Source: Perkinsus marinus ATCC 50983
Taxonomy: Eukaryota > Perkinsozoa > Perkinsida > Perkinsidae
Length of the DNA stretch: 64,000 nt
Assembly (NCBI RefSeq): GCF_000006405.1
Contig: NW_003214659.1
Coordinates: 50,622 to 114,621 of the forward strand
Reading direction: 5' to 3'
Shown piece after piece: positions 4,031 to 47,874 of the stretch (position 1 is its first letter; every line of letters begins with the position of its first letter). The position numbers and the translations under genes are program-made. The notes beneath the pieces are model-generated. The model ran no database searches and was not told the DNA's origin. It saw only the letters and a list, made by a program, of their open reading frames with translations.

Positions 4031-4313
4031 GGTATAAAATGTCATCCACCTTCTGCTTCCTCTTTATCACGGTGTTCTCGTTCTACTCGATTATGTGATT
4101 TGGTATAAGGAGTTCTAATTTCAGTTGATGCGAGGGTTCGAGACGAAGCATCCAGTAGTCGAGTGGACGAATGTTAGGAAAGATACCAAGTAATTCTACG
4201 GAGGAGCACTGCTTGTGTCATCATGTGATTTTAGAATCGACTATCCTGACTCAGGATTCCTGATGGTGATGAACTTATGGAGAAGTTCCAGGATCCAAGC
4301 CAGGCTGATAAGA
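4031..4313 (+). pseudogene. Truncated ykt6 copy
   Basis: This matches 13664-13932 of the intact ykt6: end of intron 3, exon 4, intron 4 and the beginning of exon 5. It has no 5' exons and stops matching after GCTGATAAGA at 4313. A 14-bp palindromic scar (4243-4264) interrupts exon 5; the intact gene lacks it at the same place. The copy cannot encode the SNARE core. Confidence 0.85.
4243..4264. repeat. 14-bp palindromic scar 1, W = ATCCTGAG
   Basis: 4243-4249 are W1-7, 4250-4257 the reverse complement of W, and 4258-4264 are W2-8 with the last base changed to T. The paralogous ykt6 exon (13874-13881) has the plain 8-mer ATCCTGAG, so the 14 bp are a later insertion here. Confidence 0.95.
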
Positions 4314-5103
4314 CATCAGGTACTATCGACATCTGTCATTAGTACTTTATCCTGTGCCATGGCGATTCCGTCCAACTCACATACCAAGTAAAGGCTTGAC
4401 TCATGCACTGCCTCTGAAGCTTGGTAGAGCATTTGCCGATCTGCGTGGCCGAGTGTTACGCTCTGTCGACTTCGAGCATTTCGAATCTAAAAAAGGGCAA
4501 GGGAAAGGAGGTAGAGCCGGACCCAGCTACCAGGCATACCTTTTTCCAAAGCCTTTCCACGCGGGCCGAACATTTCTGGTTTTTATGTTCTAATCTTTGT
4601 TTGTCTATCCTACTTTGTTGTGAAGCTATCTCGTCCTTAAGTTCGGGTAACTAATAACACACATTAGGAACCAACAATCTAAAGCCCTAAGAGTTGTAGT
4701 CCCGTTGAATTTTATATTAGAGTTTCGAAGTTTGCAGTTCTCCGCACGAGGGTTCTCCGCAGTATCGCACGAGGGTGAGTGGTGCCGAAAGTACATGGTG
4801 ATACTTCCACGTACTAACACAGTCGTAAGTACCTCCATATGCTTACCATGGCTTTCAACCTCGCCACCGCTTGTTTCTTATCCTGCGATTCATTAGTGTA
4901 AGCTTGCTTCTTTTCGAGGAGTCCATTTTTCAACTGATACACTCAACTGATTACTCTCGGCGCATACATACTCACCTTTCTGCCAGTCACATCATTGTCG
5001 GTTGCGAATCTATTTGTCGATACTTACACCCTTCATACACTGACCGATCATATTACAACGGTCACATCGATAATCTTACATGTTAAGGAAGTGTGTTGTC
5101 ATA
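4314..5103. other. No supported gene
   Basis: Overlapping open frames of 60-80 codons occur but show no motifs. A short direct repeat (CGCACGAGGGT at about 4744 and 4766) is present. Confidence 0.35.
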
Positions 5104-5526
5104 CTAGGGGTTGTGCAGTACCAAGAACTGACAGGATGCGTCTTGAAGAGCATCCACAAGAGACATGCAAATTTCATCTGTAACACATGTATTCCTTTGT
5201 AGCCTCGAGACTGACCATATACTTGATTTTCCACCTTCAGCTAGTCTAGCTGAAGTTCTAAGAACTGCCGCAACCACGCTCAACATATGAGATCGAAGGC
5301 CGCCAGTATCGAGTGGAATCCCTTCAAGCGATTTGAGTAATGAAGACTCATCGATCATCTTGTGCAGTAAGAAGGCCTCCTCCGAAATGAAGAATTCATG
5401 GAGAGTAACAACGATGCCACGTACTTTGCTCCTAGCTTGCGACGTGACCAGTGCTTTGGACCAATCAACACGGAACAACGAGGTTATCAGTGATAACTTA
5501 TCACATCCCAGTTGAATGTAGTGCAA
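5104..5526 (-). CDS. Hypothetical helical protein, possibly interrupted
   Basis: An open frame of 140 codons on the minus strand is predicted mostly helical. Its style (LRSHMLSVVAAVLRTSARL) resembles the helical repeats of the FAST/heptatricopeptide-like gene at 60-64 kb, but I cannot show homology. Its 5' part contains scar 2 (5483-5504) and its middle a one-base-loop palindrome (5235-5255), so the reading frame here is probably a relic. Confidence 0.3.
   Translation of the reverse strand: MHYIQLGCDKLSLITSLFRVDWSKALVTSQARSKVRGIVVTLHEFFISEEAFLLHKMIDESSLLKSLEGIPLDTGGLRSHMLSVVAAVLRTSARLAEGGKSSIWSVSRLQRNTCVTDEICMSLVDALQDASCQFLVLHNP
5235..5255. repeat. One-base-loop palindrome, 10-bp arms
   Basis: Arms cttcagctag and ctagctgaag flank a single T at 5245. 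Unlike the 14-bp scars, no third copy of the arm follows. Confidence 0.9.
5483..5504. repeat. 14-bp palindromic scar 2, W = GTTATCAC
   Basis: 5483-5489 are W1-7, 5490-5497 the reverse complement of W, and 5498-5504 W2-8. All 14 dependent bases match. Confidence 0.95.
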
Positions 5527-5605
5527 AGCATATTTCCTTGTTCAAGAGTTGAGATGGAGGCCTCAAATCTCGCCATCTCATCGAGAATTCTCATAAACAT
5601 AAATT

Positions 5606-5868
5606 TTACAAAAGAATTTTACATCCATATCTATATCTAAAAACCATACTATCCACTATTTCTGATGTTAATGACTCCAAATTAGCTACTACAGATCTAG
5701 GCGTTACAATGATTACAATGTATTTCATATTTTGATATCTCTTATCTATGATCTCCTTATATTTCTTTCACTTATTTTCAAATTCCTTCATTGTGTTAAT
5801 GTCCAATTGAGTAGCTCCTACTTCTACTACATAAATTTGGTCTTGATGTCTAAATACAATATCTGCAA
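5606..5868 (-). pseudogene. Retroelement C-terminal (endonuclease-like) fragment
   Basis: The minus strand reads ADIVFRHQDQIYVVEVGATQ, then NTMKEFENK, a TGA stop, then KKYKEIIDKRYQNMKYIVI and IIVTPRSVVANLESLTSEIV. The pattern (DI-V hydrophobic strand, VVEVG, then a KY-EI helix) resembles the restriction-like endonuclease end of non-LTR retrotransposons; this is a family resemblance, not a search result. The stretch is much more AT-rich than its neighbours, which suggests separate origin. The in-frame TGA and missing rest mark it as dead. Confidence 0.45.
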
Positions 5869-6451
5869 AGCAGTGCTACTGCAGTTTTCGGAAACACATT
5901 GCTTGCTCTGAAGCTGCAATTGTCTCCATAAGTACTGTCAAGTTGTAGATCTCAACAATCGGTAGCGTTCGTAGGCTAACAGACTCAGGAGATTCGAAAC
6001 GAAGCTTACTGCGAAGCACCGCAGAGTGCATGTACTGCCCACATAAAGCGCGGAAGGACGATTTCCGTCTCTACGATCACTTCGGTCGCCACCACCCGGG
6101 GCAACCGGAAGCATACAAGCCCAAGAAAGGTCAAAGCTCTCTATTAGACTTCTTTGCGCCGACAGGGAGCGGTGATAGGGGCGCTCGGTCAGCCGGGGTT
6201 GCAAGCGCTCCCAGCGGACATGCTAGCTCAGAGTCATCCGGAAATAACAGTGGTATTCGGATCAAAACCATGGGGAGCAAAAATGAAGCCGCCTGTACAC
6301 AGGAGATTGGGAGAGAGGGGCAATTGGATAAAGCATCATTCGAGTTTAATTGTAAGGACAAAAGCCTGAATCGAACTTGGGTGTTCAGAATAGAAGCACA
6401 GTGCTCTACCAGCACACCAGATCGAGTTACGAATGATGAATAACCCAATTG

Positions 6452-6473
6452 CCCAGGCGGCCTGGGCCAGGCC
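6452..6473. repeat. 14-bp palindromic scar 3, W = CCCAGGCC
   Basis: 6452-6458 W1-7, 6459-6466 reverse complement of W, 6467-6473 W2-8. Perfect match to the rule. Confidence 0.95.
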
Positions 6474-7458
6474 CGCATAACCGAGAAATGGTGCGATGGT
6501 TTCCAACGCGACATAACGGATGCTGGGCCTCTCCTGTACGGGCGGGTTGGGATGGGAAGTAAAAATTGAGAGAACGTTACTCTCAACTACCAAAGAACAT
6601 GAGTTCTGCGTTCATAACTCATCTTAGTTCCTATCCTGATGAATCACGCAGTTCCATGAACCCATAACACAAAACCAAGTTGCGCTCGGCAGAAACGCAA
6701 ATGTCATCTGAGATGATTCATCTCCTGTGCGTGGCTATTTCACCCTCCGTACCTAAATGGTACTCCTCAGGATCGCTGTGCCATGGAAGCTGAGGGTAGG
6801 TCAACGGCTTATATGTTTTAAGACTTATCATAGTATGATTATCATGCACGATGTATAGCGCGTCAACTACATCTCAGGCCATTTGGGAAGTCCCGAACCA
6901 TCCGCTGTATCCATCGAGTGCCCAGCAGCACCACAGCCGAATCAGACAGCATCTCCGCAGCCCGTCGCTCCTGTTGTCGATGTTACGAGAGGTGGATTGG
7001 CTACACTTGTAACGGGCTCAAAGCGAAAAGCTGGATGAGATCAAAGCTCTACTTAACCAACACCTGGCTAACGACGCCCGCCCCCAACGTGAACTCGACT
7101 TCCGCCTCAGAATCGCTAACATCGGCCCCTATAAATTAGACGATGACTTGCGGACGGTCCAATGCACGGTATGCGATACCCACAAATGGTCTATTCCCAG
7201 GAATGAGCGTCCTGGCTTCTTCGATAGATTAGGCGTATTCAGCGTCGGAGATCCGATACCCTTTGCAGAAAGGCAACGTGATCTGATCGCTTCTCTCAAG
7301 GACCATCTCAAAGTACCGACTCACAATAGATGCATCAGTATTGGCGAGACGGGCAAAACGCGTACGCGACGGAGCGAGGCTCTGGCGGTGGCTCGCCCTG
7401 CTTATTTCAATGTTGTCGGAGGTCACAGCCACAGAGAGTCTGAGAGATTGCTGGCCTT

Positions 7459-7486
7459 GCTGTGAGACCGAATCCGGTCTCACAGC
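7459..7486. repeat. 12-bp inverted repeat, 4-nt loop
   Basis: gctgtgagaccg (7459-7470) and its reverse complement (7475-7486) flank AATC. It lies in the dead transposase and does not follow the 14-bp scar rule. Confidence 0.9.
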
Positions 7487-7956
7487 TACGCTCCTGGAGT
7501 CTCTCATATCCTTCGGGCTCACGGGAGAATCTCTCCGGGACAACCTCGTGACTTTGGCCACGGATAGAGATTAGCATGCGCTGAAAGTTGGCGCAAGATT
7601 AGCAGGGGCCCTTGGCTGCGAGGATGATCAGATTTTCCATTTGTGGTGCATAGCACATCGAATTGAGCTTTCCGTCGACGATTCGCATAAGGGCGTCACT
7701 GATATGCGCAGCATCCTACATCCAGCGATGCCTTCGAGACACGGCAATGCCTATGAGAACCTCGAGGCACAAGCTGAAGAGCGAGAACTTCCGTTTGTAG
7801 TGCACTTATCCTTTTCATCGACCAGATGGGCGTCAAGCGAGTGCCGCGTCTACCGCAGCTTCATCATCAACTATCGTACCATATGTGAGCTAGGTGAGCG
7901 AGTCCTGTAACTTCTGTGGAAACTGTATTGGAGCTGTCTGACAGCGGTTGTCATGT

Positions 7957-8009
7957 GTGACAAACGCGTAATCGTAACTCACAGTGAGTTTCGATTACAC
8001 GTTTGTCGC
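7957..8009. repeat. 53-nt one-base-loop palindrome
   Basis: Left arm 7957-7982 and right arm 7984-8009 are 26 nt each, matching at 23 positions, around a single A at 7983. The three mismatches suggest it is older than the perfect scars. Confidence 0.9.
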
Positions 8010-8071
8010 ACGCATGAGTTACGCTCAGTTGTCAGGTACATTCCCTCAGGTCAAGAAAATAGACTGGGTGC

Positions 8072-8093
8072 TCAAGTTGAACTTGACAAGTTC
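8072..8093. repeat. 14-bp palindromic scar 4, W = TCAAGTTC
   Basis: 8072-8078 W1-7, 8079-8086 reverse complement, 8087-8093 W2-8. Perfect. Confidence 0.95.
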
Positions 8094-8270
8094 TCCGTCA
8101 GCCATGACGCTCTCAACAAAACAGCCTCAGCATCGTGCACGTCTCAAGCTGTCAACCGTCGGCTCTGGCAGGTGCTCACATCGGTGCATCATCTCCGTGA
8201 CGAAGTTATTATTGCAATCAGCTGAGCTGAGAAAGTTCGATGATGCAATTGTTGATTCTGGGGATCAGAG

Positions 8271-8292
8271 GGCTGAAGTTCAGCCGCTGAAC
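8271..8292. repeat. 14-bp palindromic scar 5, W = GGCTGAAC
   Basis: 8271-8277 W1-7, 8278-8285 reverse complement, 8286-8292 W2-8. Perfect. Confidence 0.95.
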
Positions 8293-8497
8293 GATGTTCA
8301 GATGTTCAGTGAACATATCTGGTTTGTCGATCGGGATAAGTTCAAGATGGACTCATATCCTACGCTCGCTGGCATTGACTTCGTCGGTAGGTCTTGGAAA
8401 ACCGTGAAACTTGACCCTATATCACCGTGGTTATTCAGAATAGCCATTGGGTTCTGCGTAAGCTGGAATGACCAACTGATCGCAGCGCTGGGGAAGC

Positions 8498-8538
8498 CGC
8501 TCTTTGTACGCCTACAGGCTGTAGGCGTACGAAGAGCG
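8498..8538. repeat. 41-nt one-base-loop palindrome
   Basis: Arms 8498-8517 and 8519-8538 (20 nt, one mismatch) surround a single G at 8518. No third copy of the arm follows. Confidence 0.95.
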
Positions 8539-8772
8539 CTAGGCTGCACCGGCATGGCCTTGGACGGGCTCGTATCCGATCCTCACTTCCAGGTGAGCTG
8601 CTTGGGATTGATTTGCTGGTCTACACTTCGGTCTCTACTGAATCTCTCAAGCTGAGCCCATGGAGTGCCGAAGTCGACACTGCCTTGCAGAGCGTCGGTA
8701 ACCCTCGCAGTGATGTCCTTGCTGATTACTTACCGACACCTAAGTACATCCTGATGATTATATGTGCGGCAA

Positions 8773-8794
8773 CCTATAGCCTATAGGCTATAGG
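8773..8794. repeat. 14-bp palindromic scar 6, W = CCTATAGG
   Basis: 8773-8779 W1-7, 8780-8787 reverse complement, 8788-8794 W2-8. W is itself palindromic, so this case carries less orientation information. Confidence 0.9.
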
Positions 8795-9041
8795 ATATGG
8801 ACTCGTACTCTCTGTACCAAGTCTTCGGCCGAAGTTGCGACGGTCCTCGGTGAGCCCTCGGATGAGATTTCGCCCAGTCTGCCTGGTTGACGGTAGAATG
8901 TTTGCCAATTTGCTTGTACGTGGGATGTTTGTGGCAGGTCCCCACCAGCAGCGTGGCCAGAGGCATTCAGCTGCTGATGTTGCCTCCATTCTCGCCCAAT
9001 TTGGCCTTCTACGAACGCTGCCACAAGGAGTATCAGAATGG

Positions 9042-9063
9042 GTTGAGACTCTCAACTTGAGAG
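9042..9063. repeat. 14-bp palindromic scar 7, W = GTTGAGAG
   Basis: 9042-9048 W1-7, 9049-9056 reverse complement, 9057-9063 W2-8. Perfect. Confidence 0.95.
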
Positions 9064-9291
9064 CCATGCTGCTGGAGACCAACTCACCGACTTTCTACTG
9101 GTGGAAGTTTTACAGCCTGGTCACCCACGCTTACAACAACTCCCCATTACCTGGCTCCTCTTTAGCTGCTGCTGCTGCTGTCACCCCTAATGACTTGTAT
9201 CTTGCCAAGGGATCTACAACGTTGCTACCCGGTGGAGCTGCTGATCTCCCTTCATCGCCCGCTGCCGAGCACTTCATTGAGGCGTTTGAAG

Positions 9292-9313
9292 CTATTCCGG
9301 GAATAGTATTCCC
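9292..9313. repeat. 14-bp palindromic scar 8, W = CTATTCCC
   Basis: 9292-9298 W1-7, 9299-9306 reverse complement, 9307-9313 W2-8. Perfect. Confidence 0.95.
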
Positions 9314-9327
9314 CCCCTCCGAGCTGG

Positions 9328-9349
9328 CCTCTAACTTAGAGGCTCTAAG
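9328..9349. repeat. 14-bp palindromic scar 9, W = CCTCTAAG
   Basis: 9328-9334 W1-7, 9335-9342 reverse complement, 9343-9349 W2-8. Perfect, and only 14 bp from scar 8. Confidence 0.95.
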
Positions 9350-9558
9350 GTAAACAACAACGTAGCTCAAGTTGCTGCAACTGCACGAGAGTCTCTTGGA
9401 ATAAGCTTGAAGTTGTATCAAGCCGATTGGGAACTTAGGCGAGTAGCATCGCGCAGGTCATGGGTTCTCTCTTCGGTTGGTAGGCGTGTCGGCCCTATTG
9501 AGCTCGGTTCCTGGGTCTAAGTTTGGCGGGCAGCCCACTTTAAGACTGACACTAATTG

Positions 9559-9580
9559 GATGGGTGACCCATCATGGGTC
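9559..9580. repeat. 14-bp palindromic scar 10, W = GATGGGTC
   Basis: 9559-9565 W1-7, 9566-9573 reverse complement, 9574-9580 W2-8. Perfect. Confidence 0.95.
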
Positions 9581-9806
9581 CGGCCCGTGTTATAGTGTAT
9601 GTCCTGTTGACACCTATCTAGTTTATTGGTTGGGATCGAGAGATGATGGTGCCGATGGAAGATCGTCTACGGAGTCTGGTTACAACCTGATGCCTATTCG
9701 GCAGGCTACTATACTCGCAAATCTTGACGATCGCTACAACTAAATCATCTTCAGAGCAAGATGCCATGCAACGTGCACTTTCGGCCCGCCAGCAGATCGT
9801 ATGTCA

Positions 9807-9823
9807 ACCAGCACAGTGCTGGT
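9807..9823. repeat. One-base-loop palindrome, 8-bp arms
   Basis: accagcac and gtgctggt flank a single A at 9815. No return copy follows. Confidence 0.85.
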
Positions 9824-9974
9824 AGTGACTACCTACTCCACGAGACATCTTTAATGCTGCTGCCCTCAACAGTCTATTGCATCAGACTGCTAGCGGATGA
9901 AGACGATTGATGATGAAAATTGTATTATGTTCTGAACTCTGAACCATCGGAGCGTATGGAGTGAAGCCAGTGGT

Positions 9975-9996
9975 GTAGGATGATCCTACTAGGATC
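9975..9996. repeat. 14-bp palindromic scar 11, W = GTAGGATC
   Basis: 9975-9981 W1-7, 9982-9989 reverse complement, 9990-9996 W2-8. Perfect. Confidence 0.95.
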
Positions 9997-10377
9997 AGCT
10001 ATCTGCGAGAACAGCGTCTGCACTAGCCCGATAGAGAAGTGGTCGATTGCAGAATCTGGGGTCCCGGACACCGAGTCCGTGAACTCAGAATCTCATACTT
10101 CGAAGTTCTGCCACAGTTCATGCTGAATCGGTCACTGACAAAATTTCAATTGCGCGCATCCCGACCTCGAAGTCCCCGAGCATGGAGAGCGGTAGCATGA
10201 ATCAGAATAGATCGGGAGGGATGTCGAACATAACGTTATCCCCTTCGTCGGTTTCGTCATCGGGTTGCTGGTCAGTGGCAGAATCAGCATCCGATTTATG
10301 CGCACACTCTAAGAGGAGACGATATCTTCCCTCAGGGTGAAGTCACTATTATCCGCATGTTCTCAAGTCTTAAAACT

Positions 10378-10399
10378 GTACAATGATTGTACTACAATC
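10378..10399. repeat. 14-bp palindromic scar 12, W = GTACAATC
   Basis: 10378-10384 W1-7, 10385-10392 reverse complement, 10393-10399 W2-8. Perfect. Confidence 0.95.
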
Positions 10400-10482
10400 G
10401 AGTTTCATCATGCCGTGTGGTGTTTTGCGTTGTCTCTGAGGGAGGGCGTAAGTTCCGGGTGATCACCCTTGGGGAACGAGTA

Positions 10483-10504
10483 CCACAAACTTTGTGGCAC
10501 AAAG
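10483..10504. repeat. 14-bp palindromic scar 13, W = CCACAAAG
   Basis: 10483-10489 W1-7, 10490-10497 reverse complement, 10498-10504 W2-8. Perfect. Confidence 0.95.
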
Positions 10505-10537
10505 AGTCGAAGAAACCAAGAAAAGCGCTCTTTCGTA

Positions 10538-10559
10538 CTGAGATGATCTCAGTGAGATC
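10538..10559. repeat. 14-bp palindromic scar 14, W = CTGAGATC
   Basis: 10538-10544 W1-7, 10545-10552 reverse complement, 10553-10559 W2-8. Copy A has the plain CTGAGATC at 1484-1491. It sits at the left edge of the duplication, so left-flank homology is weak. Confidence 0.93.
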
Positions 10560-10946
10560 GACACGTTGCGAGCTCTTCGTCATCCTAACGTCATCCGCAT
10601 GGTCGACGTTGTGGATCATCCAGAGTATATCTGCTTCGTGATGGAGCTGGCAAGCGGAGGAGAGTTGCGACGGTTCGTTGAAAGGCACGGCCCTCTTGAT
10701 GAGAACAGTAGACAACAAACGTTACACTTCCGGAGGTTATTGGCATCTCACTCAGTCTCCCAGCACATATTCAATCAAATAACAAAAGCAGTTCATTATT
10801 GTCATTCGAAGCGGGTCGTCCATAGAGACCTCAAGCTTGAGAACATCCTCATGCATGAGCACAGCTGCTGCAAGATAGTCGACTTCGGTCTAGCCGTAAG
10901 CTTTCAGCCCAAGCCACGCTGATGCAACAGTAGCTCTAGAACTTCG

Positions 10947-10968
10947 CTGTGATGATCACAGTGTGATC
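10947..10968. repeat. 14-bp palindromic scar 15, W = CTGTGATC
   Basis: 10947-10953 W1-7, 10954-10961 reverse complement, 10962-10968 W2-8. Copy A has the plain CTGTGATC at about 1877-1884, so the insertion is exactly 14 bp. Confidence 0.97.
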
Positions 10969-10993
10969 CCCGAGACAATGGTCACAGATGCTG

Positions 10994-11015
10994 GCACTGA
11001 CTCAGTGCCACTGAG
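10994..11015. repeat. 14-bp palindromic scar 16, W = GCACTGAG
   Basis: 10994-11000 W1-7, 11001-11008 reverse complement, 11009-11015 W2-8. Copy A has the plain GCACTGAG at about 1910-1917. Confidence 0.97.
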
Positions 11016-12107
11016 GCGTATTTGGCGCCTGAGGTCTATTGGGGTGAGCATATGCTGACCGAGCTCCTGGTCTCGTTCTTCCTAGGGGAGAGTGTGGGGA
11101 ACGACCCCTTCAAGATCGACGTGTGGTCCCTTGGCGTCATCCTTTATGCCCTGACTCACGGCAAACTACCATTCGAACGCCCTGCGAAGGAGGTCTGCAA
11201 GAGACTTGAGCGAGTAAGTCGACCAGAGAGAGGTCCCGGCTGCTAGCATTTTCTTTCGCGTTGAGTCCACCTCCGTCTCGCTTGGGTATCGATCGGCCAC
11301 GCCCTCTCCCTGTATGGACTCATCTGACTCTGCTGCAGCTGTCTGCTACAGGAGTTCTAGACGTATCTTTTTCTTTCTTCTCGAGGTGGGCCCTGATTCA
11401 AGGCCGATGCAAGTCCACCACTGCGAAGCCTCATCCGGAGGATGCTCACGCCTAAGGTTAGAAAGAGATGCTCAATGGATGATGTAGGCTTTATATTTTT
11501 CGAATCTCGATGTCACGTCCTGCCTCATGCCGCTCCCGTTTTGATATTCCCTAGACCAAGGTCTAGCTATTGCTCAGATTACAACAGACCCGTGGCTGAG
11601 TCGAGGACGTTACGTTCGCTGCACTCTAGTTCCGCGTGGGTATCAGCCGAGCTTCTCATGGTAAGTTGACACACAATAGTTTCTCATTTCTTCAGAGATG
11701 CCTGATGCTCGCGTGGTGATCCAAGAGATGAATTCAGGAAAGATAGAGAAGCCGCTCCTGAATGACCATAGTTCATAGCCGTCTTCATCCTTGGTGACTT
11801 GTCGAGTTTTGCAAACATCTGAGGTTCGCTCGGCCACTAGAGGTATACTCAACCCAACAGTACACACGTCTTGTCTAAAACAGCAAGGAAGGGCAGCTGC
11901 TGGTGCTGCCCTGCATGGGCTCTGTCGTTCCGCACATCGGAAGTTTGTCGTATCAGCATCGGGGCCTTAGCGATTCCGGAATCCTCCCTGTCACTAGTGG
12001 ATACCTATTAGTTTTTCAGAATCAGACCTTCCTTCATGAACAAGTAGTTCATGAAGAATCCCCTTAGTCGCGACCAAAGAGCACTTCCGGGTGGACTGCG
12101 GCTACGG

Positions 12108-12710
12108 TTACCACTTTCCGTCACAACCGTCCCGAATCTTCCACATCACTCTGCACCTCATATTTGAAAAGAGTCTCCGAGGTAGAGGAAACGGTTGGGG
12201 ATCTGTGTTGGTTGATCTCTGCTTCATGGGATCTGGTGAATCCCCAAGGTTGTCTCTCGAGTTTTCCCGCGATTTCACATTCAAGATGCTTTTCTGTTGC
12301 TGTACTTTCCTCACATGAGCAATCCATTCAGCAACAACGTTGTTGTTGTATTGATCACTAGTGGGTTCGCTACGGGTCGCCACTGACTCTTTCTCTTCAT
12401 CATCCGAGCCTCCATAAGCCCTCATTCCTCTCTGTAAAGGAGGTAGCCCGCTCTCGAGCACCTTTGCCCGACTGAGTTCTCGGCCGATCGAGTCTTGAAT
12501 GTTTTTTAATCGTTGATTGATTCCAGTTCGACCAAGACTCCCGAAAGGGAGGTCCGTTGCACGGTACAGGCCGACGACGACGACCACGGGTTGATGGTCA
12601 GCCATGGTCTGGCATCCGATGGACACCGTCTCCCCTGTTGCGAATCTGGAAATGATAACTGATAATGCGCCTCTGATGGAATCGACACTGAAGCGGATTA
12701 TATTGAGCAT
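12108..12710 (-). CDS. Hypothetical protein, copy-B counterpart (probably decayed)
   Basis: A minus-strand open frame of 200 codons overlaps the stretch homologous to the acidic ORF of copy A. The conserved peptide FKYEVQSDVEDSGR is present but in another frame (12121-12327). No domain is recognised. A short run PVVVVVGLYR is hydrophobic. It may be a spliced gene read incompletely. Confidence 0.3.
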   Translation of the reverse strand: MLNIIRFSVDSIRGALSVIISRFATGETVSIGCQTMADHQPVVVVVGLYRATDLPFGSLGRTGINQRLKNIQDSIGRELSRAKVLESGLPPLQRGMRAYGGSDDEEKESVATRSEPTSDQYNNNVVAEWIAHVRKVQQQKSILNVKSRENSRDNLGDSPDPMKQRSTNTDPQPFPLPRRLFSNMRCRVMWKIRDGCDGKW

Positions 12711-13215
12711 AACCAGAACGAGTCGTTTCGTGTCATCCTAGCGACCGGCTGCGATATGCCGAACAGAAACGATGAGATTCTTACGCCTCTCCCACAGCTG
12801 CTCTTCCTGACAATATCGTTTGTGATCCCACTCAAATCATCACCGTCGCAACGTGATCTACGTGGTGGAAAGAGTCATCGATTTTTGGGCGTGCGCGGTT
12901 TTCATAATTGGTCCCGATCAACAACATAACTATACGGAATGACGTGAAGAGGAAGCTGTGCAGACTCTAGGGAGCATATTTGAACGATGTTGGATGCATA
13001 GTCTTATCTATGCCAATTGATATTACATTGCATCCCTCTGTTCCCTTGAAGACAACAGACGCACGAGAAGTTAGCACACGGTCATCACGGAAATCATTGC
13101 CTTCACCGTGTTTTCCAGTCTGAATCTGTTCCGCTCAGGCCTGTGGAGTGTTACTCTGATTGAGCGCACCTTTCAGTAGTATTTTTATTCCCTGCTACTG
13201 TAGTCGTCGGTTAAC
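12711..13215. other. Spacer upstream of ykt6
   Basis: No open frame with recognisable features. The stretch directly upstream of the ykt6 ATG probably contains its promoter, but I see no defined element. Confidence 0.4.
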
Positions 13216-14234
13216 ATGCAAATTCTAGCTTGCATCCTGTACAAGTACGAGCCGGACAAGGCTACTGAGATATCGACATTCTATGACCTGCACAAAATAT
13301 CGTAATATTCGAAGAGCGGGAGTGGAGGAGCCTCTGGGTGACTCGCAGATATTTCCAGCGGAAAACTGTAAAGGAGTTCATCAAATTTCACGCTCGAGCG
13401 ATCGTCTCCCGAACTGCCAAGGGACAGAGGCAGAGCGTTCAGTTCGAACAGAACATCGGCAAGTGTCATGTGTAGGTGTTGGTTAACGAGGTGCCCGTCT
13501 TCGTACTCATCCGGTTCAGATACGTCGCTCCGGATGGCTTAGGGGCTGCATGCCTCACAGACGGGGAGTATCCTATGCGCGTTGCTTTCGCGTTCATCAG
13601 TGAGGTACTTGGGGTTAACTTTCGAATAAGGATGGGGTAGTTATCAATCTGACTGTTAGTGATGGTATAAAATGTCATCCACCCTCTGCTTCCTCTTTAT
13701 CACGGTGTTCTCGTTTTACTTGATTATGGTGATTTGGTATAAGGAGCTCTAATTTCAGTTGATGCGAGGGTTCGAGACGAAGCATCCAGTAGTCGAGTGG
13801 ACGAATGTTAGGAAAGATACCAAGTAGTTCTACGAAGCTGCACCGCTTGTGTCATCGTGTGATTTTAGAATTGACTATCCTGAGGGTGATGAACTGATGG
13901 AGAAGTTCCAGGATCCAAGCCAGGCTGATAAGATCGCCCAGATTCAGAAGGAGCTGGACGATGTTAAGGGCGTCGTCATCAAGAGTACTACTTGGGAGGT
14001 TTCGGTGACTATTCGTGTTTGGTTCTGTTTGAGACCGTATGTGCTTTTCCTCGCAGGCATGGACGACGTATTGCGAAGGGGAGAGACTTTGGACAGTCTG
14101 ATGCAGAAGTCTAATGACCTCAGCAACACCTCGTAATATGTCAGGAATTTCATGGCGAAGTGAAGCGTTTTGTGTGTAGATACCAGTTCTACCGTACTGC
14201 GAAGAAGAACAATCAGTGCTGCAAATATTACTAG
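13216..14234 (+). CDS. YKT6: R-SNARE Ykt6
   Basis: Seven exons with consistent phases: 13216-13301, 13349-13471, 13520-13604, 13759-13823, 13869-13984, 14057-14132 and 14180-14234 (201 residues, the family's usual length). The N-terminal longin domain reads ILYKYEP ... YFQRKTVKEFIKFHARAIV ... KCHVYVAPDGL and GEYPMRVAFAFISEV. The SNARE core reads KIAQIQKELDDVKG, then SMDDVLRRGETLDSLMQKSN, and ends QFYRTAKKNNQCCKYY. Ykt6 is a membrane-fusion SNARE anchored by lipidation of C-terminal cysteines instead of a transmembrane segment. Here the double cysteine is kept, but the last four residues are CKYY, an unusual prenylation box. Introns are 45-72 nt except intron 3 (154 nt). Confidence 0.9.
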
Positions 14235-32500: not shown

Positions 32501-32504
32501 ATAA

Positions 32505-37686: not shown

Positions 37687-38409
37687 ATGTCAGTCTATGC
37701 TTCGCCTCGATTCCTACTACACAACTTCGCAGTGCGGACGCTCCTCTGGGCTCTTCTACTAGGTTTCCTGGGTACTCATCAGGAGCTTATACCTTCTACT
37801 GTGATCCGTCCAGGCTTTCCCTTAGTACTCCTCTTCTGTTTATCACCCCCCGTCACAGTGCAGGAACTGCGGGTAGCTGCTATGACCGTCGGGCTGGCCT
37901 TCCTCCTCCAGAGAGTTGCTGCGCTCTTCGACACAGCTCGGCTCGGCCTCCTTGTATTCTCCTTCATCAGAGCGGGATCAGCAGAGGAGTGTGTTAAGTA
38001 CCTCGCAGTGGTCAGTGTACCGAGTAGTACTCCGCCGTCAGTACGTAGACTGGGCGTCTGGTCGTCCCTCGCCTTCGCAGCTTGGGAGAACCTCACTCGA
38101 GTCGACACTCTCCTCACGAACTCCTCCTGGGTTGCCTTTGGTGCGCTGACTATCCCACCTTTAGTGCATTTATTCTGCACTAGTATTGCTATCGACCCGG
38201 ACTCAGATTTCCGCAGGTGGTCATTGCCAGTAGCAGCTATGTGTCACGGCATATACGACCTCGCCGCCCTCACCTACGTGCCTCTATGTCCGGTTATTCT
38301 GTTATGTATTATCCTCCTGAGTGAGGCTAGCCATGCAGTAGGGCAAGGAGTGGAGGAGAAATATCCGAACCGTGTAGGAGAGGAAGAGCTCACGTGTCTG
38401 CCGGTGTAA
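37687..38409 (+). CDS. PrsW-like intramembrane protease family protein
   Basis: Intron-free frame of 240 codons from ATG (MSVYASPRFLLHNFAVRTLL), with six or more hydrophobic segments. It has the motif series of the PrsW (M82) family in the right order: AEECVKYLA (EExxK), AFAAWENL (FxxxE), PPLVHLF (H) and MCHGIYDLA (HxxxD). In bacteria such proteins cleave membrane proteins; eukaryotic roles are unknown. The C-terminus is short and acidic. Intron-free structure differs from most neighbours. Confidence 0.7.
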   Translation: MSVYASPRFLLHNFAVRTLLWALLLGFLGTHQELIPSTVIRPGFPLVLLFCLSPPVTVQELRVAAMTVGLAFLLQRVAALFDTARLGLLVFSFIRAGSAEECVKYLAVVSVPSSTPPSVRRLGVWSSLAFAAWENLTRVDTLLTNSSWVAFGALTIPPLVHLFCTSIAIDPDSDFRRWSLPVAAMCHGIYDLAALTYVPLCPVILLCIILLSEASHAVGQGVEEKYPNRVGEEELTCLPV

Positions 38410-40296: not shown

Positions 40297-41280
40297 CTAT
40301 CTGCGTGGTATATATTTGTACATCACAAAATTCTTTGTGACATGTCGTACATCAGCGTAAATGAACAAAATCGGTTTATCATCAAAATCGTCTTTAATCA
40401 CATAATGTTTTGCAACGAAGAAGATATGACCACCGATTTTTTCCCTTATGTGTTCGGTCTCCTCTTGGTTCCATCCTTTGAATGTAATAAACGTGCCACC
40501 CTGAGGTCGCGGGCCGAAGAGACTGTATGTAAGGTACATCGGTCCAAATCTGGTGTACAAAGTTGCTTCACCGTCAAAGTTCATCTCGATTTGCCATAAA
40601 TTAAAGTTCTCCCCGCCAAAAATGCAATCAACCATACCCTTTCCATTGAAGCCGGCGCAGCGTGCTTTCGCGGGAACGTCTGGAATTCGGTCTTCAAACT
40701 TCATTAGCTTGCGTGTGGAGTCGTACTTCGTGGAGCCGTACTTCGTGGAGCCGTACTTCGTGGAGTCGTACTTCGTGGAGTTGTACACCAGGAACGTCCT
40801 GAAGGCCGCACCTTTAGCTCGTAATCGAGGTGGGTTTGTTACGATAACCTTGAGAGAAGCTCTTCCTTTCCCGTCCTTCGCGTAGGGGTGATAGTCAACG
40901 AAAGGTAACCCCTCCTTCTCTAATACCGCGTTCGTCATCAAGGGGAAGCAACCTGGCATTTTTCTGATCCTCTTGAAGGCGTTCTTGCTCGAATCAAGAT
41001 AGGTGAGGGAGACTCCCAGTATTCCACTGTCTCCCTTAGCGAACTTGTAAGGTACCGTTTCACTCCCGAAATTACCGGTAAGAGTAGCTGTGCCAAGGCG
41101 GTAGACATCTTCGGCATCAGGTTTTGTACCATCAGACCAGAACCTTATGGACTCGACAGCACATCTATTCGGGGAGGAGTCCGACAAGTACACGGTGCAG
41201 TCGTCAAGAGTATCACAGGTGGCACTGGTCAAAACAACAGTATGTAGAACGAGCGTGATGGTAAGGAGAAGACGAGACAT
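40297..41280 (-). CDS. Secreted protein with KY(D/G)ST repeats
   Basis: Intron-free frame. I choose the ATG at 41278-41280 because MSRLLLTITLVLHTVVLTSA is a good signal peptide; an upstream ATG at 41316 would add 12 residues. The mature protein has paired cysteines (ATCDTLDDCTVY, PNRCAVES, KMPGCFPL, ARCAGFNG, VDCIFGG). In the middle a five-residue unit TKY(D/G)S is repeated four times. No domain is recognised. Lineage-specific secreted protein is the best guess. Confidence 0.65.
   Translation of the reverse strand: MSRLLLTITLVLHTVVLTSATCDTLDDCTVYLSDSSPNRCAVESIRFWSDGTKPDAEDVYRLGTATLTGNFGSETVPYKFAKGDSGILGVSLTYLDSSKNAFKRIRKMPGCFPLMTNAVLEKEGLPFVDYHPYAKDGKGRASLKVIVTNPPRLRAKGAAFRTFLVYNSTKYDSTKYGSTKYGSTKYDSTRKLMKFEDRIPDVPAKARCAGFNGKGMVDCIFGGENFNLWQIEMNFDGEATLYTRFGPMYLTYSLFGPRPQGGTFITFKGWNQEETEHIREKIGGHIFFVAKHYVIKDDFDDKPILFIYADVRHVTKNFVMYKYIPRR
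40717..40785. repeat. 15-bp tandem repeat inside the secreted-protein gene
   Basis: Four copies of a 15-bp unit like tacttcgtggagccg keep the reading frame and encode five-residue repeats. Confidence 0.85.
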
Positions 41281-41316
41281 TCTCGAGGGTGAATAGAACT
41301 GTGATGTGAACCGCAT

Positions 41317-42003
41317 AGTACCACATTACACAAACTTATAGCAACGAATTGTTCCCTGCTACCGTAGTTGTAAACAAATTGTTGACGTCAGAAACAACAT
41401 TACAGCATTGACAACACAAAAAGTGTTAGGTCGCACACTATGGGAATGAACATGAATCATGAGGACCGATGCTTCTTACGTCGAGGAGACGTAGCATAGC
41501 TAGCATCATCAAGATTTTGTCCTATTGCTTCATCGTGGTAATGGTCACTTTCGTCATCAGTAGGCGTAGCGACGGGGTTCCACTAGTAAACAAGAGCAGG
41601 AGACATGGAAGTACTCAATTGTTCTTGCAACAGCGCTCGCCATGCTAATCGATATATGAACTTTGCCAGCCAGGCATAAATAAGTAACTCGTCGTAGGTT
41701 GACATGGAAACTCTTTGTATAACTATTGAGCAATTCTGTCATATTCTTGATTGTTCTCAAATCAGTACAATGCTTCTCGAGATTCGCCGTCTCGTTGTGA
41801 TGAGACGGGCGGAGTAAAACCCAAAATCCGAATGGTACATGTCGCTCCTAGATGGAGGTGGAGGGGGGTCGAGATCATGTGTTGGCCTCGCTACAAGGCG
41901 GTGTGTGGCGGGGCTCTCTCAATGGCTAAGCAAGCCCATATGACCTAACTAACGCTGAGCTCGGATTTAGCGCTGACTCATTTAGTTAATCCTCAGCGAC
42001 CCC
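41317..42003. other. Divergent intergenic region
   Basis: No gene is supported. It separates the secreted protein (minus) from the glycosyltransferase-like gene (plus) and so should contain both promoters; no element is recognisable. Confidence 0.4.
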
Positions 42004-43362
42004 ATGTCGGTCCTCATCACTGCAATGGCTGGGATTCTGTTGCTCGCCTTGGGGGTGCAAGTTGGCATGTGGCTTGCGCCATCTACCCAACGTCGAGGCT
42101 CTCTGCAGTCGTTCCTCCGATTTGGAGAGCATTCAAAGGTTAATCGACCGTTGGTGGAATCCACAAGCGAGAATGGAACTACCCCACTTTGGGATACCAT
42201 TGGCAGTGAAGCATACTGGAAGACTCCTCAAGGTCAGGCTCACCTCAAGGACGAGGTCAAGAGAGCTGCTGCTGATGTTGACTCCGTCATGGAGGCGTTG
42301 AACACTGTGACAGCGAGCCCGAACATTGTGCGAGCTGTAATGATCTGTTTACCTAGCGATGGTGGCGATAAACGGAATCGCGAACTGAGAGCCCTCTACC
42401 TCTCCTGGCTTCTGGCTTTGTCCGAAGAACCTCCTCACTTGCGCACAGATCTCGTCATCTTCACCGACGATCAGGCGGCTGATCTCGCCGCCGGCCTCGG
42501 CTGCGTGAGAGATGTCCGACATGACTTCTCAACGCCATCGCGGTGTGTTATCGCCCCTTACACGCCTCTCGAACATCGGACTCGGTCACCTTCCCAACCA
42601 GAGGACCCTCTTGTTCGGTATTCTGGCTACATGAATAGCATTCTCAGCTTCGCTGAATACGATGGTTATGCCTACGATTTAGTTCTTCGCACTGATACTG
42701 ACGTTTTCGTGATGCCGGGTTTCTACAACTGGACACTACCGAGTGACGTCAACATCATTGTGGGTCTAGGCGGATATAGTGTAGAGAATAATGATGCCCA
42801 CTTATTATATGTATCCAAGACACTCGGATTGCGAAATGAATTCAATCACCGCAATGTGGGCAGTACCTGGTTTGGTAAACTCACGCTCGCTCGAGCCGCC
42901 GCCCGTTTGAGTGTGGCTGCCGCACGATGGCTTATTGCGGAGGAATACTCGGAATACGAGAAGTGCTGTGCAGGCATTCTTGGATGGCCTCATTGGCATT
43001 GGGGCGTTGTCACTATGTACAGTGGACATCTAGCGCTCAATCATATAGCGCCTTTCGCCAAATCAGGAGATGGGCACGGCAATCTGGATGTCGGGGCGGC
43101 TAGTTCCGACCTAGTGTCGGATCCTATGGTCAAACATGTTCACTGCTGGCACTCAAACGATCGCTTTTCCAAGTTTGAACATGAGAATGGGGCGTACGAT
43201 AGCTACGACCTCACGCCATATATGGAAATGGCTGTTATCAAGGATTTCGCTTTAGTTGTGGCAGTTACTAGTCTGAGGCTTACTCAAACTGAGTTCAAAG
43301 ATTTTTCCTCAAACCCTGGGACTTTACGTAACAGGTCGAGTTGGCTGCGACTCCTTCCTTAA
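42004..43362 (+). CDS. Type II membrane protein, glycosyltransferase-like with DXD motif
   Basis: Intron-free frame of 452 codons. An N-terminal signal anchor (ITAMAGILLLALGVQVGMWL) precedes a lumenal domain. VRAVMICLPSDGG, LVIFTDDQA and YDLVLRTDTDVFVMPGF are typical of nucleotide-sugar transferases, where the DXD coordinates metal and sugar nucleotide. NHRNVGSTWFGK and GWPHWHWGVVTMYSGHLALN form further conserved-looking blocks. It resembles uncharacterised protist proteins of this type. Golgi location is inferred. The last 40 residues may include a read-through intron. Confidence 0.6.
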   Translation: MSVLITAMAGILLLALGVQVGMWLAPSTQRRGSLQSFLRFGEHSKVNRPLVESTSENGTTPLWDTIGSEAYWKTPQGQAHLKDEVKRAAADVDSVMEALNTVTASPNIVRAVMICLPSDGGDKRNRELRALYLSWLLALSEEPPHLRTDLVIFTDDQAADLAAGLGCVRDVRHDFSTPSRCVIAPYTPLEHRTRSPSQPEDPLVRYSGYMNSILSFAEYDGYAYDLVLRTDTDVFVMPGFYNWTLPSDVNIIVGLGGYSVENNDAHLLYVSKTLGLRNEFNHRNVGSTWFGKLTLARAAARLSVAAARWLIAEEYSEYEKCCAGILGWPHWHWGVVTMYSGHLALNHIAPFAKSGDGHGNLDVGAASSDLVSDPMVKHVHCWHSNDRFSKFEHENGAYDSYDLTPYMEMAVIKDFALVVAVTSLRLTQTEFKDFSSNPGTLRNRSSWLRLLP

Positions 43363-44231
43363 CATTGACAGTAACATTCCATCGGTCTTTGCGCACTCGA
43401 TTTTCACTTAGTCTTAAATCTTACCGTCGGCTCATCATTGTACAGATTGGTTTTTTTCCGGAGACCACGGAACTTGAACTCCTGTTTTGTTGAAGTAGGG
43501 GAGGATCTGTTTGTCAACCGGAAGACTCATCCTGCTGAGGTATATCGGTGTCTAATACTCCTCATCTGCTAGTCGACTTTGTGAGCTTTTAGCAGATGAA
43601 TCGCCTTAGGACTTGGAAGACCACATGATGGATCTCGTCGGTCTCCAAAACATGATGGTTTGAGTCGATTCGGGTCGGAGTGGGTCCAATCGGAAAAATC
43701 GATCGAGTGTGTCCACAACACCGCCCTTGCCCTGAAGTCGCCAGTTCAGTGTATACTTAGCAAGCTCGACTGCTGCTTTAACATGAATATCGGTTCGGGC
43801 CCCGACCTGGTAACAGCCAACACCAAGGCGGGTTCCGAGGGAACTGTTCCGAGGAGCCCTACACGTTCTCGACGATCTCCCTCGCGGGGGAGATCTACAA
43901 TGGAGGTGAAATATCATCAGTTCTGAAAGCTCATCCTGAGTCACTCGAAAATACAAAAAGGGCACACTGTGTGAGCGATGGATAATCGCAGAAGCAGAAG
44001 CAGACGACCTCTGACACGACAAGGCGAATAATCATCCTCAAGCGCTCATTAATAATACCCTCCGTTCCAACCGTCTTGAGCAGGTCCCTATGACTTCTCG
44101 AGAGGATGTGGACATGACATTGTTCGACCAACATTGGACTTCGCGCCTGCAGCATAGACCGTATACTAGAAAGAAAGAGACTGGCGCATGGGTCGGAGGT
44201 TAGCCTTCGTACATCTACACACAAGACCAAT
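43363..44231. other. No clear gene; possible 5' exons of the next gene
   Basis: Frames on both strands lack motifs. A plus-strand stretch near 44090-44200 could be an upstream exon of the glycine-zipper gene, but the splice could not be fixed. Confidence 0.35.
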
Positions 44232-44664
44232 ATGATACTCTCAGGAGCCTTCCTTGGTCTTCTGGCACTACCATTCGGCCCTATAGGGATGGTTGTCCTC
44301 GGTGCTCTAGGTGCCGGCATTGGTACCTTGATCGGTCTAGTGTTGGACAAACGAGAAGTGATGACCATAGTTTTCCTGTCTGGCCCTGCATATCAATCTC
44401 AATTCCATCTCAGCAAAGGACCGGCCGTCTGTTAGCATCTCGGGAACATCGCCGACTCAAGTACCTTATACGATACGCTTCAGACCGGTTCTCACACAGC
44501 GAAGATCCAGCAGGTTTTCTCGAGAGTGTAAGATTATCGAGGCTACGTTGGAGAAGGGGTATCCCAACATTCAGGTTATCACTGAGTTCAAGCCCGTCGC
44601 AGAGATCGGAACAATATCTAACGCAGCCAAGAAGGAACTGGTGAGACTCTTTGTGACACGCTAG
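44232..44664 (+). CDS. Small glycine-zipper membrane protein
   Basis: Three exons, 44232-44357, 44414-44527 and 44575-44664 (109 residues), with phase-0 GT-AG introns of 56 and 47 nt. The N-terminus is a Gly/Ala-rich transmembrane hairpin (FGPIGMVVLGALGAGIGTLI), then a basic helix (SREHRRLKYLIRYASDRF) and VITEFKPVAEIGTISNAAKK. The glycine-zipper pattern suggests oligomeric membrane insertion. Start may be further upstream through another exon. Confidence 0.5.
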
Positions 44665-44989
44665 AACCTTGTGGGTGCAATCACAGCCAGCAGTTCCCAA
44701 GATATGCCTTAGCACAATCAGTTGCGCAGTAGTACGAGAAGAGGAGTTATTGTCGGTCTGATTTAATGAACTCTAATTTCAACGAATTGTGGTACTCCAA
44801 CTTGTTGATGCTAAGATCTAACCAGTTGATCTAAGATATGGCATTGCAGGACTGCGACTCCACCTAGAAGAGACTCTAGTGAGTATTCAGTGGCAGTTTG
44901 CCCCTGGAAATTAACGATGGCACACTTGACCCCAAACAAGGCCCGTCTTATTCGCAGCGGAATCGATACTCCCGAATGGACCTGTACCG

Positions 44990-45535
44990 ACGAAAGCGAT
45001 TGTACTGAGGCATATCTTTGAGTACCGGTGGCATAGCCGCCCCGGCTGACGAAATTGACTGTACTGTGGCATATCTTTGAATAGCGGTGGCATAGCCGCC
45101 CCGGCCGACAAAATTGGCTGTACTGAGGCATATCTTTGAGTACTGGTGGCATGGCCGCCCCGGCGGACGAAATTGACTGTACTGAGGCATATCTTTGAGT
45201 ACTGGTGGCATAGCCGCCCCGGCTGACGAAATTGACTGTACTGAGGCATATCTTTGAATACCGGTGGCATGGCCGCCCCGGCTGACGAAATTGACTGTAC
45301 TGAGGCATATCTTTGAGTACTGGTGGCATGGCCGCCCCGGCTGACGAAATTGACTGTACTGAGGCATATCTTTGAGTACTGGTGGCATAGCCGCCCCGGC
45401 TGACGAAATTGACTGTACTGAGGCATATCTTTGAGTACTGGTGACACAGCCGCCCCGGCCGACAAAATTGGCTGTATTGAGGCATATCTTAGTGCACTAG
45501 TGGCATAGCCGCCCCCGGTCGAATGAATTGATCTT
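44990..45535. repeat. 59-bp tandem satellite, about 9 copies
   Basis: Units start at 45002, 45061, 45120, 45179, 45238, 45297, 45356, 45415 and 45474. About 39 bp of each unit aligns with the 41-bp unit at 0.5 kb (ggcatagccgccccggctga versus ggcatagccaccccgcctga); the other 20 bp (gcatatctttgagtactggt) is extra. The minus strand is open in all frames across the array, so long frames there are an artefact. Confidence 0.95.
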
Positions 45536-45808
45536 ACTAGGAGCTAGGATTTACATCATTTAGAGGCCTATTAGCTCTTAGTATGTTCATACATACGGAG
45601 GCGCTCCCTCGCTCCTCCCCATTAGACACTCCTTTGCTGCTTCCTCTGTCGTGATGATGTCCATCGATGTCTATGGATATATGTGGAGGACTTCTTGCAA
45701 GTGATAACATGTGCATGGGCCGCTTGAGAATCATGATAGAACTGGCGAACCTTATCAAGCATTGACTTCCTACACATCTGCGTGGACATACTGGGAACTC
45801 TGGTGGCG

Positions 45809-47874
45809 ATGGACGAGGCATTGTCGTCAAAGCCGCATTTCGAAGTGGTGAAACGAATGAAGGCTTTCATTGAGCATCCCAATATTAAGGTGACGATTTT
45901 TTTGCTGAGATACTCAGTTAAACTAGGCCAGTTCATCATATTTGTACCACCTCAGCCCATATACGAGCACTCTCAGTGGCACCCACCACCTGCGACACAG
46001 AAAGTCATCGAGAGCCTCGTGTAGGTCACTCCAGTCATACATGCATTGTTGGCGTACTACAGATATAAGGATGCTCTGGAACGAGAAAGACGAGAGCCAG
46101 AGCGGGGCAGTCTCCATGAGGCGGTAGAGAAAGCTAAGGGAGCCGCCGATCATGACTACCTTCAGTTACGCAAGGCAACATCACAGATGAGCAGACCGTG
46201 GAGAAGGGCGTCGGATGCTCTCTCAATTGGAGGTTCCCTATCGAGCTACCGTGGGTCAAATATACTCTCATTCTCAGTCGAAAACGGTGAAGTCGATACA
46301 CCCTACGTGTCGCCGGCCTCCAGCTCTAGGTCGGTCCTGCAGTCAACCCCTGGGGCCTTTCCTATGCGTTTCAGAGGTCGAAATCTCGATGACATCCACG
46401 GGACTGTTCGGGGAGCGAATCTGCCTGTACGACGCTCAGGCCACATATCGTACTCGTCATGTAGGTCCTGTCGACAGGAGCAACCAATGAGGGAGACAAT
46501 GCACCAGAAAGGATTTGCCTTTCCGCAGTACACAGTAGCAGCGCCTGCTCGATTTACTCTCGGGACCTCTGCCGCTCGCTACTTCACCACATTCATATCA
46601 GGCGAATCGGGAAGTCTTTTTCGAGTGCTTTGACGATTTCCTCAACTTCGACATTGAGCTCAAGCATAAGCTACCCATAGGCTTGGTGACACTGGTCGTG
46701 TCAGCTAGTCTCACCGTTCAATGCAGGGAGAGTTTCGATTCCTTGAAGAAAAGGAGAGAGAGTCTTGTGGCGGCTGGGATGTCTGCATCGATAAGGCGAA
46801 AATCAAGGCAGGTGTTGCTGCAGTGCTCTGGAAAAGTTGGCCTCACTCAGGTGGTCAAGCTTAAGTCTGACGGATCGCCATCAGTGCTCGTTCGAGCCTG
46901 GGCTACCGTGACGAACACTCCAGCTGAGCTCGTACTCTACCATATTCATGACTTCAAGTGACAGTAACAGCACGCTCTTCCGTTCTGAGAGTCTTCCCAG
47001 GAGGCGCGTCGAGTGGGACAAAACTTTCAGTGAGATGAGATTGTTGAAACCATCCAGAAGCGATGAATTCTCCGACACTCTCTACTGCGTCCTGCGGGTT
47101 CGTCCTCATTCCTTGCATCCCTCTGTTAGAGTCGCTTTCAGGCCCCATTCGGTGTGCAGCCAAGGGACTTCTTACAGTATCGTCGCATGATCGTCGATCC
47201 CTCCAAAACCAACCTAGACGGCAAGCGTTTCTTGATTCTCATGCGCAGTGCATCTCGCGCAGAGCTGCCAGAAGTACAGAAAATACCTCGGCCGAACGCG
47301 GTAAAGCCTTGACCAGGTCGCTCAGTACATCAGAGCCGAGACTGTTATTTCGGGCTACATAATCGAGCAGGCCGCAGGTTGCAATGACACGTCACTTTTC
47401 ATACTGTCTCAGACGGACATCAAAGGCCTGATACCAAAGTGGATCGTCAATACTGCTGCCGGCCGTGTTCCTGTCCAATGGTAAGCACCTCCGATATCAG
47501 GGCAGAGTGTTGACAGTGTCAACTTGACACATCAAGTTTCTCATGACGTACAAGTGTAGCAGCAATGCGTCTGTTATGCTGCTACGTATGTAATTTTCTG
47601 CCGTTGTCGTGTGCTATCATCTTGACTGGATCCATTGTTGGTTAAATGGTGCTCGCGTACCCCTTCACTCGACGGATCTAGATGCTCCTATTCGATTTCG
47701 TTCAAGAACTGAGTCAATGTCCTAGTGCGCTGATTGTGTCTCAGGGTCGAGAGTCTCGAGGAGGCATGCCGGAAGTACCGTTCACAACACACTGACTATG
47801 CCCGCTTAATGGAGATCTACTTAGCTCAGCATGTGCCCTCGATCTCTCGACATGTGGAGACAACGAGCCTATGA
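45809..47874 (+). CDS. START-domain (lipid-binding) protein
   Basis: Begins at ATG 45809 (MDEALSSKPHFEVVKRMKAF). Solved joins: ...HPNIK to WHPPPATQKVIESLV to YKDALERERREPERG; later YHIHDFK to RRVEWDKTFSEMRLL; CVLR to APFGVQPRDFLQYRR; PRPNA to YIRAETVISGYII; VPVQW to VESLEEACRKYRSQ, stop at 47872-47874. The START signature is clear: RVEWDKTF, VQPRDFLQYRRM, KRFLILMRSAS, and DIKGLIPKWIVNTAAGRVP. START domains bind lipids or sterols. The last intron (47481-47744, 264 nt) is long and contains scar 17; another intron seems to be only 25 nt (about 47303-47327). Confidence 0.8.
47509..47530. repeat. 14-bp palindromic scar 17, W = GTTGACAC
   Basis: 47509-47515 W1-7, 47516-47523 reverse complement, 47524-47530 W2-8. 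Perfect, and the only scar found outside 4.2-11.0 kb. It lies in the last intron of the START gene. Confidence 0.95.

Follow-up and report, generated by a model that had tools for sequence, protein, structure and literature searches.

A 64,000-nucleotide stretch of Perkinsus marinus ATCC 50983 (contig NW_003214659.1, positions 50,622 to 114,621, hereafter the window) carries 22-mers built by one rule: an 8-mer, W, has become W(1-7)+rc(W)+W(2-8), where rc(W) is its reverse complement. With a probability of roughly 0.7, these 22-mers are excision footprints of hAT transposons, which duplicated the 8-bp target W and then left. The scars are real, present on many contigs and most likely hAT-derived. 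The window lies in a genome of 54.46 Mb and 347 contigs; C numbers denote contigs and L numbers loci, the window being C237:50622-114621.

The 22-mer rule and its specificity

The initial annotation had listed 17 such sites from the letters alone, and a rule scan of the window found that all of them read as claimed. Sixteen were exact, and the one at 4243 had a single mismatch. The scan added four sites to the cluster in which most of them lie, at 6703 (one mismatch) and at 6826, 7932 and 10058 (two mismatches each). Sites with three mismatches were found in the window at 5311, 8780 (overlapping 8773), 28650 and 38797. The scars consist of W and its complement alone, with no extra bases.

Matches with up to one mismatch were absent from 20 first-order Markov sequences of 64 kb, and ten such sequences gave four matches with up to two mismatches. 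Variants of the rule were scanned in the window and the extracted loci together (204,328 distinct 31-mers, ~204 kb). A unit of 8 with one base lost gave 68 distinct perfect 22-mers, 52 of them beyond the window. With one base lost, units of 5, 6 and 7 gave 4, 0 and 1 perfect matches, and units of 9-12 none; a unit of 8 with 0, 2 or 3 bases lost gave 0, 1 and 0. Short units, which constrain few bases, gave 53 (unit 5, two lost), 870 (5, three lost), 70 (6, three lost) and 11 matches (7, three lost), compared with ~50, ~800, ~50 and ~3 by arithmetic, the last count being somewhat high. The seven matches to unit 10 with three bases lost all lay at unit-8 scars. The rule is exact and specific. Two features of hAT footprints were thus found: the 8-bp unit (68 matches vs 0-4 for units 5-7 and 9-12, with a single W in homologous copies), and palindromes centred on the complement of the element-adjacent base, that is, with a one-base tip.

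The same scan bears on two other origins. Transib/RAG elements have a 5-bp target duplication and no one-base loss. A 5-bp unit was rejected: it gave one match with no base lost, and its four matches with one base lost were near the ~3 expected by chance. Template switching during replication (quasi-palindrome formation), with no transposon involved, would account for a product that is a double palindrome. However, it would not fix the unit at 8 with a one-base loss, nor give a target-site logo, and the spread of unit lengths that it would give was not seen among the rule variants. We consider it highly improbable.

Scarred and empty copies of the same sites

Homologous copies in the same genome had a single W region at 15 of the 17 listed sites, which upholds the proposal that an 8-mer had turned into a 22-mer. 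The copies compared were surrounding repeats, a tandem copy of a window segment, and related elements on other contigs. About 14 bp were really added at the scars, since the homologous copies hold one 8-mer there; W differs by substitutions in some of them. Empty and scarred states were both seen, and no filled copy was among the extracted loci. For the scar at 5483..5504 (W=GTTATCAC, from the rule scan) no homologue was found. The scar at 47509..47530 (W=GTTGACAC) was present and identical in both copies seen (C237 and C301). It lies just past GTAAGC, which by eye resembles a splice donor, and probably sits in an intron.

The one-mismatch scar at 4243..4264 (W=ATCCTGAG) has single-W counterparts near window position 13878 (L022), on C301 (L020) and on C21 (L025). 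A single W was found in L012, L013, L015 and L018 for 6452..6473 (W=CCCAGGCC), and in L012, L013 and L018 for the additional one-mismatch scar at 6703..6724 (W=ATCATCTC). The C341 copy has a single W for 8072..8093 (W=TCAAGTTC). At 8271..8292 (W=GGCTGAAC) the gap against this copy was 36 bp, corresponding to the scar and a further 22-bp insertion after it. Two probable scars with two mismatches each, at 6826..6847 and 7932..7953, look older, because both are also on the C341 copy, which is 95% identical.

Copies on C51 (L006) and C55 (L014) have a single W region for 8773..8794 (W=CCTATAGG), and the C51 copy has a single W for 9042..9063 (W=GTTGAGAG). The scars at 9292..9313 (W=CTATTCCC), 9328..9349 (W=CCTCTAAG) and 9559..9580 (W=GATGGGTC) were supported by a 65%-identical copy; the C55 copy has a single W region at the latter two. 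The first is additionally supported by P0009, a protein from another contig, which contains the translation of scar 9042 and lacks scar 9292. Here P0009 differs by 15 bases, not 14, beside a run of C, and the gap against the C55 copy is likewise 15 bp. As judged from this protein sequence, scars appear to differ between copies within the strain.

Further along, L007-L010 have a single W region for 9975..9996 (W=GTAGGATC), 10378..10399 (W=GTACAATC, also in L016) and, in slightly different form, 10483..10504 (W=CCACAAAG). A decayed scar at 10058..10079, with two mismatches and a 12-bp insertion, was recognised from the rule scan and the copies. The tandem copy has a single W near 1482 for 10538..10559 (W=CTGAGATC), and also for 10947..10968 (W=CTGTGATC) and 10994..11015 (W=GCACTGAG), these last two scars being in the second kinase-like copy and not in the first.

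Alignment gaps at the scars were mostly 14 bp, with one W region remaining in the copy. They measured 12-14 bp at 9042, 9975 and 10378, depending on the copy, 15 bp at 9292 and 36 bp at 8271. A spectrum of 60 approximately de-duplicated gaps of 4-60 bp, taken between copies of 70-99.5% identity, had 21 gaps of 14 bp and at most five of every other length. Canonical scars made up 20 of these 21, ten of them outside the window. Eight gaps of other lengths also held a canonical scar, partly the same scar placed differently. Among 25 non-canonical insertions of at least 6 bp, four carried palindromes of other arm lengths (10, 9, 6 and 7), each with a shuffle fraction of at most 0.01, chosen out of the 25 without correction for 25 tests.

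Three hAT loci on separate contigs (L039, L040 and L041, on C79, C157 and C333) have the same three scars in common, so that scars were copied along with later DNA duplication. An assembly artefact is a practically negligible explanation: W is different nearly every time, and scars are common to separate contigs (these three loci, and C237 and C301 at 47509) and absent from other copies.

Target-site bias, resident hAT elements and a proposed mechanism

A logo of W was made from the 68 distinct perfect scars, both halves pooled (n=136). G1/C8 (63/136, p 8e-8), T2/A7 (60/136, p 1e-6) and T3/A6 (51/136) were enriched, and T1/A8 was depleted (12/136, p 2e-6). T2 and A7 occurred together in 13 of 68 scars, vs 4.25 expected. 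The overall bias, G-T-n-n-n-n-A-C, includes the nTnnnnAn pattern of hAT footprints and is as in Hermes/Ac-type hAT targets; Hermes prefers 5'-nTnnnnAn-3' and makes 8-bp duplications (PMC10368747). Buster-type elements target nnnTAnnn (PMC3499496). The bias of W is of the Hermes/Ac type and not of the Buster type, because T4/A5 was unbiased (32/136, p 0.77) and a central TA was found in 1 of 68 scars.

The genome search gave 14 matches to the hAT dimerisation domain, all above the cut-off. The genome thus has hAT transposases, and it also has elements that are bounded by terminal inverted repeats and flanked by an 8-bp duplication. One element, at C172:11890-14940, is 3051 bp long and has identical 12-bp inverted termini, the duplication GTCGTGGT and an open frame with a hAT dimerisation domain. 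Another, on C108, is 1716 bp long (including 100 N in the locus), with termini TATAGATGGGC matching at 11 of 12 positions and the duplication GTGTTGAA. Their relatives were few in the genome searches, with at least six and at least eight match rows. The C172 element is itself scarred, with one mismatch (L049:3435), and a PDB sequence search with its transposase returned nothing below E 0.1. The hAT-type chemistry suggested in the initial annotation is supported by the target logo, the resident elements and the single-W copies.

Merlin (IS1595-type), another superfamily with 8-bp duplications, could have made the scars: the genome has four IS1595-type transposase matches, three above the cut-off, related frames are reported from P. 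marinus, and duplications in the superfamily are 8-9 bp (PMC8101967). However, the logo of W is of the Hermes/Ac type, and PMC8101967 could identify neither the termini nor the duplications of the P. marinus copies, and the word hairpin is absent from that paper. Merlin elements have GG-ended inverted repeats, and no element ends were seen at the scarred sites. We regard a Merlin origin as improbable. The P-type transposase domain PF12017 had no match in the genome, the control genomes giving none either. P element footprints keep element ends.

Starting from what was observed (a single W turned into a 22-mer, the bias of W, and the resident hAT elements), we infer hairpin geometry, opening and annealing as follows. 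A hAT element would insert and duplicate its 8-bp target W. At excision, the transposase would nick each flank one base out, and the 3' end freed in this way would attack the opposite strand. The left flank would then close as a hairpin of W1-7 and W8'-W1', tipped by W8', and the right flank as its mirror image, rc(W)/W2-8. Kat1 cuts predominantly 1 nt away from the terminal repeat (PMC4763223). If each hairpin were nicked at the outer edge of W or further out, the 3' strands would contain W' and W, whose complementary 8 nt could anneal. Trimming of flaps and filling of gaps would then produce W(1-7)+rc(W)+W(2-8), a gain of 14 bp. The outcome would be uniform because the length of the duplication fixes the product, not a ruler nuclease.

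In the ruler alternative, both hairpins would be cut precisely at the outer end of the duplication, either by the hAT transposase or by a host nuclease that it positions, and ligation would then seal the matching 3' ends. The product is indeed mostly exact, in the rule scan as in the gap spectrum, and the two active sites in the Hermes dimer lie at a spacing that suits 8 bp (PMC10368747). Nevertheless, annealing through W yields the same product without a ruler, and the arms of 6, 7, 9 and 10 in four non-canonical insertions speak against a cut fixed at 8, as the openings do not look fixed. Such a ruler seems unlikely. A coordinated resolution in Perkinsus, in which the two hairpin ends would be kept aligned while they are joined via the 8-nt duplication, is conceivable but less likely than not; hAT excision would then act as a high-fidelity +14-bp mutagen with an undescribed end-joining outcome.

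Among solved proteins, DNA polymerase theta is the best relative of a family-A polymerase on C267; another, on C306, stands closer to bacterial polymerase I. A Ku-domain match is also present, and a loss of non-homologous end joining as the cause of the uniformity was dropped for this reason.

Several points weigh against excision footprints made in this way. The annealing step is suggested by geometry and was not observed, and the Ku-domain match means that joining without homology should be possible. No scarred site was found filled among the loci compared. Clear duplications surround two resident hAT elements only, the scars are not tied to a family, and a shortened relative of 1.1 kb on C335 has modified ends and lacks a clean duplication beside them. 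Of the 25 non-canonical insertions, 21 show no palindrome that stands out, and these may not be footprints at all. Because loci were picked for their resemblance to the window or to families, scar densities do not come from an unbiased sample. Elsewhere, hAT footprints in Candida were of 28 types among 128 (PMC5873905), and 8 of 94 rice excisions, all superfamilies included, were perfect (PMC4423477).

The chemistry is known, and the uniform outcome is unusual. Coding joints of V(D)J recombination (RAG) contain P nucleotides, a likeness to the scars, but differ in being variable. They likewise involve flank hairpins (PMC6900584). Ac/Ds elements in plants and yeasts share the 8-bp duplication and palindromic additions centred on the complement of the element-adjacent base; microhomology was present in most joints in Arabidopsis and S. 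cerevisiae and in 51% in Candida (PMC5873905). In S. cerevisiae, arms reached 20 nt, and yeast microhomology was under 6 bp (PMC4561436). Ac/Ds footprints are diverse, whereas Perkinsus has one dominant product that would use the whole 8-nt duplication. Hermes, a hAT element of Musca domestica, also forms flank hairpins at an 8-bp nTnnnnAn target, but the available text of these reports makes no mention of a uniform 22-bp footprint (PMC6900584, PMC10368747). For mPing/Tourist, microhomology in the duplication similarly guides repair to one favoured product; there it is mostly the precise empty site, whereas hairpins here would give a fixed +14 palindromic scar (PMC4561436). Among the papers listed in searches of the open-licence PMC literature, none was seen to announce a uniform 22-bp hAT footprint or such Perkinsus scars, and a report may exist elsewhere. 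Of the earlier suggestion of an undescribed repair outcome, the unusual uniformity is borne out by the gap spectrum, and the undescribed status is as far as limited literature searches reach.

Distribution of the scars and their hosts

Perfect and one-mismatch scars were counted for densities, with L040 and L041 omitted as duplicates of L039. Window positions 4000-11200 hold 15 + 2 scars, and the remaining 56.8 kb of the window 1 + 0. Nine other hAT loci (27.2 kb) hold 20 + 13, with 0 to 4 perfect scars per locus, and three long-frame hAT loci (9.5 kb) 0 + 1. There were none in four loci at the Ku and family-A polymerase matches (13.7 kb), and 1 + 0 in nine arbitrary 2-kb tiles (17.9 kb; the scar is in L065, and a tenth tile consisted of N). 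If the tiles are representative, the genome would have ~3,000 scars, a figure uncertain by more than tenfold.

A gain of 14 bp shifts the frame wherever a scar falls in a coding exon, and the scars are distributed as expected if decayed DNA tolerates them. Such tolerance explains the cluster at 4.2-11 kb, a region made up largely of decayed mobile DNA and a redundant gene copy. It need not be put down to one element hopping locally, as some hAT loci on other contigs have similar densities. Scars would also concentrate at decayed elements if mobile DNA were scarred by a programmed genome defence directed at repeats. Yet tolerance accounts for that concentration, one scar (47509) lies in a probable intron and another in an arbitrary tile (L065), and no enzyme or signal for it was met, none having been searched for; we hold it to be very improbable. 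The dedicated process raised in the initial annotation is likewise not needed, given that density follows decayed DNA and that some non-canonical palindromic insertions exist.

Three scar hosts were delimited, all on the forward strand. The decayed element at 6021..8497, interrupted by a repeat at 6283-6769, was recognised from its frames and the C341 copy, and we take it to be hAT-like from CxxH and RW motifs seen by eye. The decayed element at 8519..9942, integrase-like by eye, has C51 and C55 copies and protein relatives; its frame at 8787-9350 is matched by Pmar_PMAR021015. The third host, at 10550..12196, is a duplicated segment in its second copy, with a frame that resembles a protein kinase by eye; it was delimited from the frames and the tandem alignment and contains the scars at 10947 and 10994. 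It belongs to a tandem duplication of window positions 1481-4313 and 10550-13933, spaced about 9.1-9.6 kb apart, with the scars in the second copy. Of ten window frames searched against Pfam, only the one at 42004-43362 had a match (DUF7164); the scarred relics had none. Where the C341-like relic meets the C51-like relic, an inverted repeat at 8498-8545 was seen by eye, with a one-base centre and 12-base arms (~20 with one mismatch); it looks like a long hairpin-derived junction.

The DUF7164 frame is intact, and seven relatives were found, six named Perkinsus and one nameless. Window positions 42000-47800 match C301 at 98%, and the C301 stretch is probably the second haplotype. One window protein is 97% identical to Pmar_PMAR026023. 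Minisatellites have 41-bp units at 441-1006 and 59-bp units at 44930-45578, the latter region having relatives on many contigs. Two identical 75-base repeats, tRNA-gene-like by eye, lie 1670 bases apart (61649-61723 and 63319-63393). A 21-mer one base off the spliced-leader pattern occurred 34 times, vs 0 in the reversed control.

With so uniform a footprint, old hAT departures can be recognised by a string rule within a single genome, no outgroup being needed. It would allow cut-and-paste departures to be counted and dated, even those of now-rare elements, and would serve as a neutral insertion clock. It also opens the way to direct tests of how hairpin ends are resolved in an alveolate. If coordinated resolution is true, the scars are a lasting, countable record of transposon departures.

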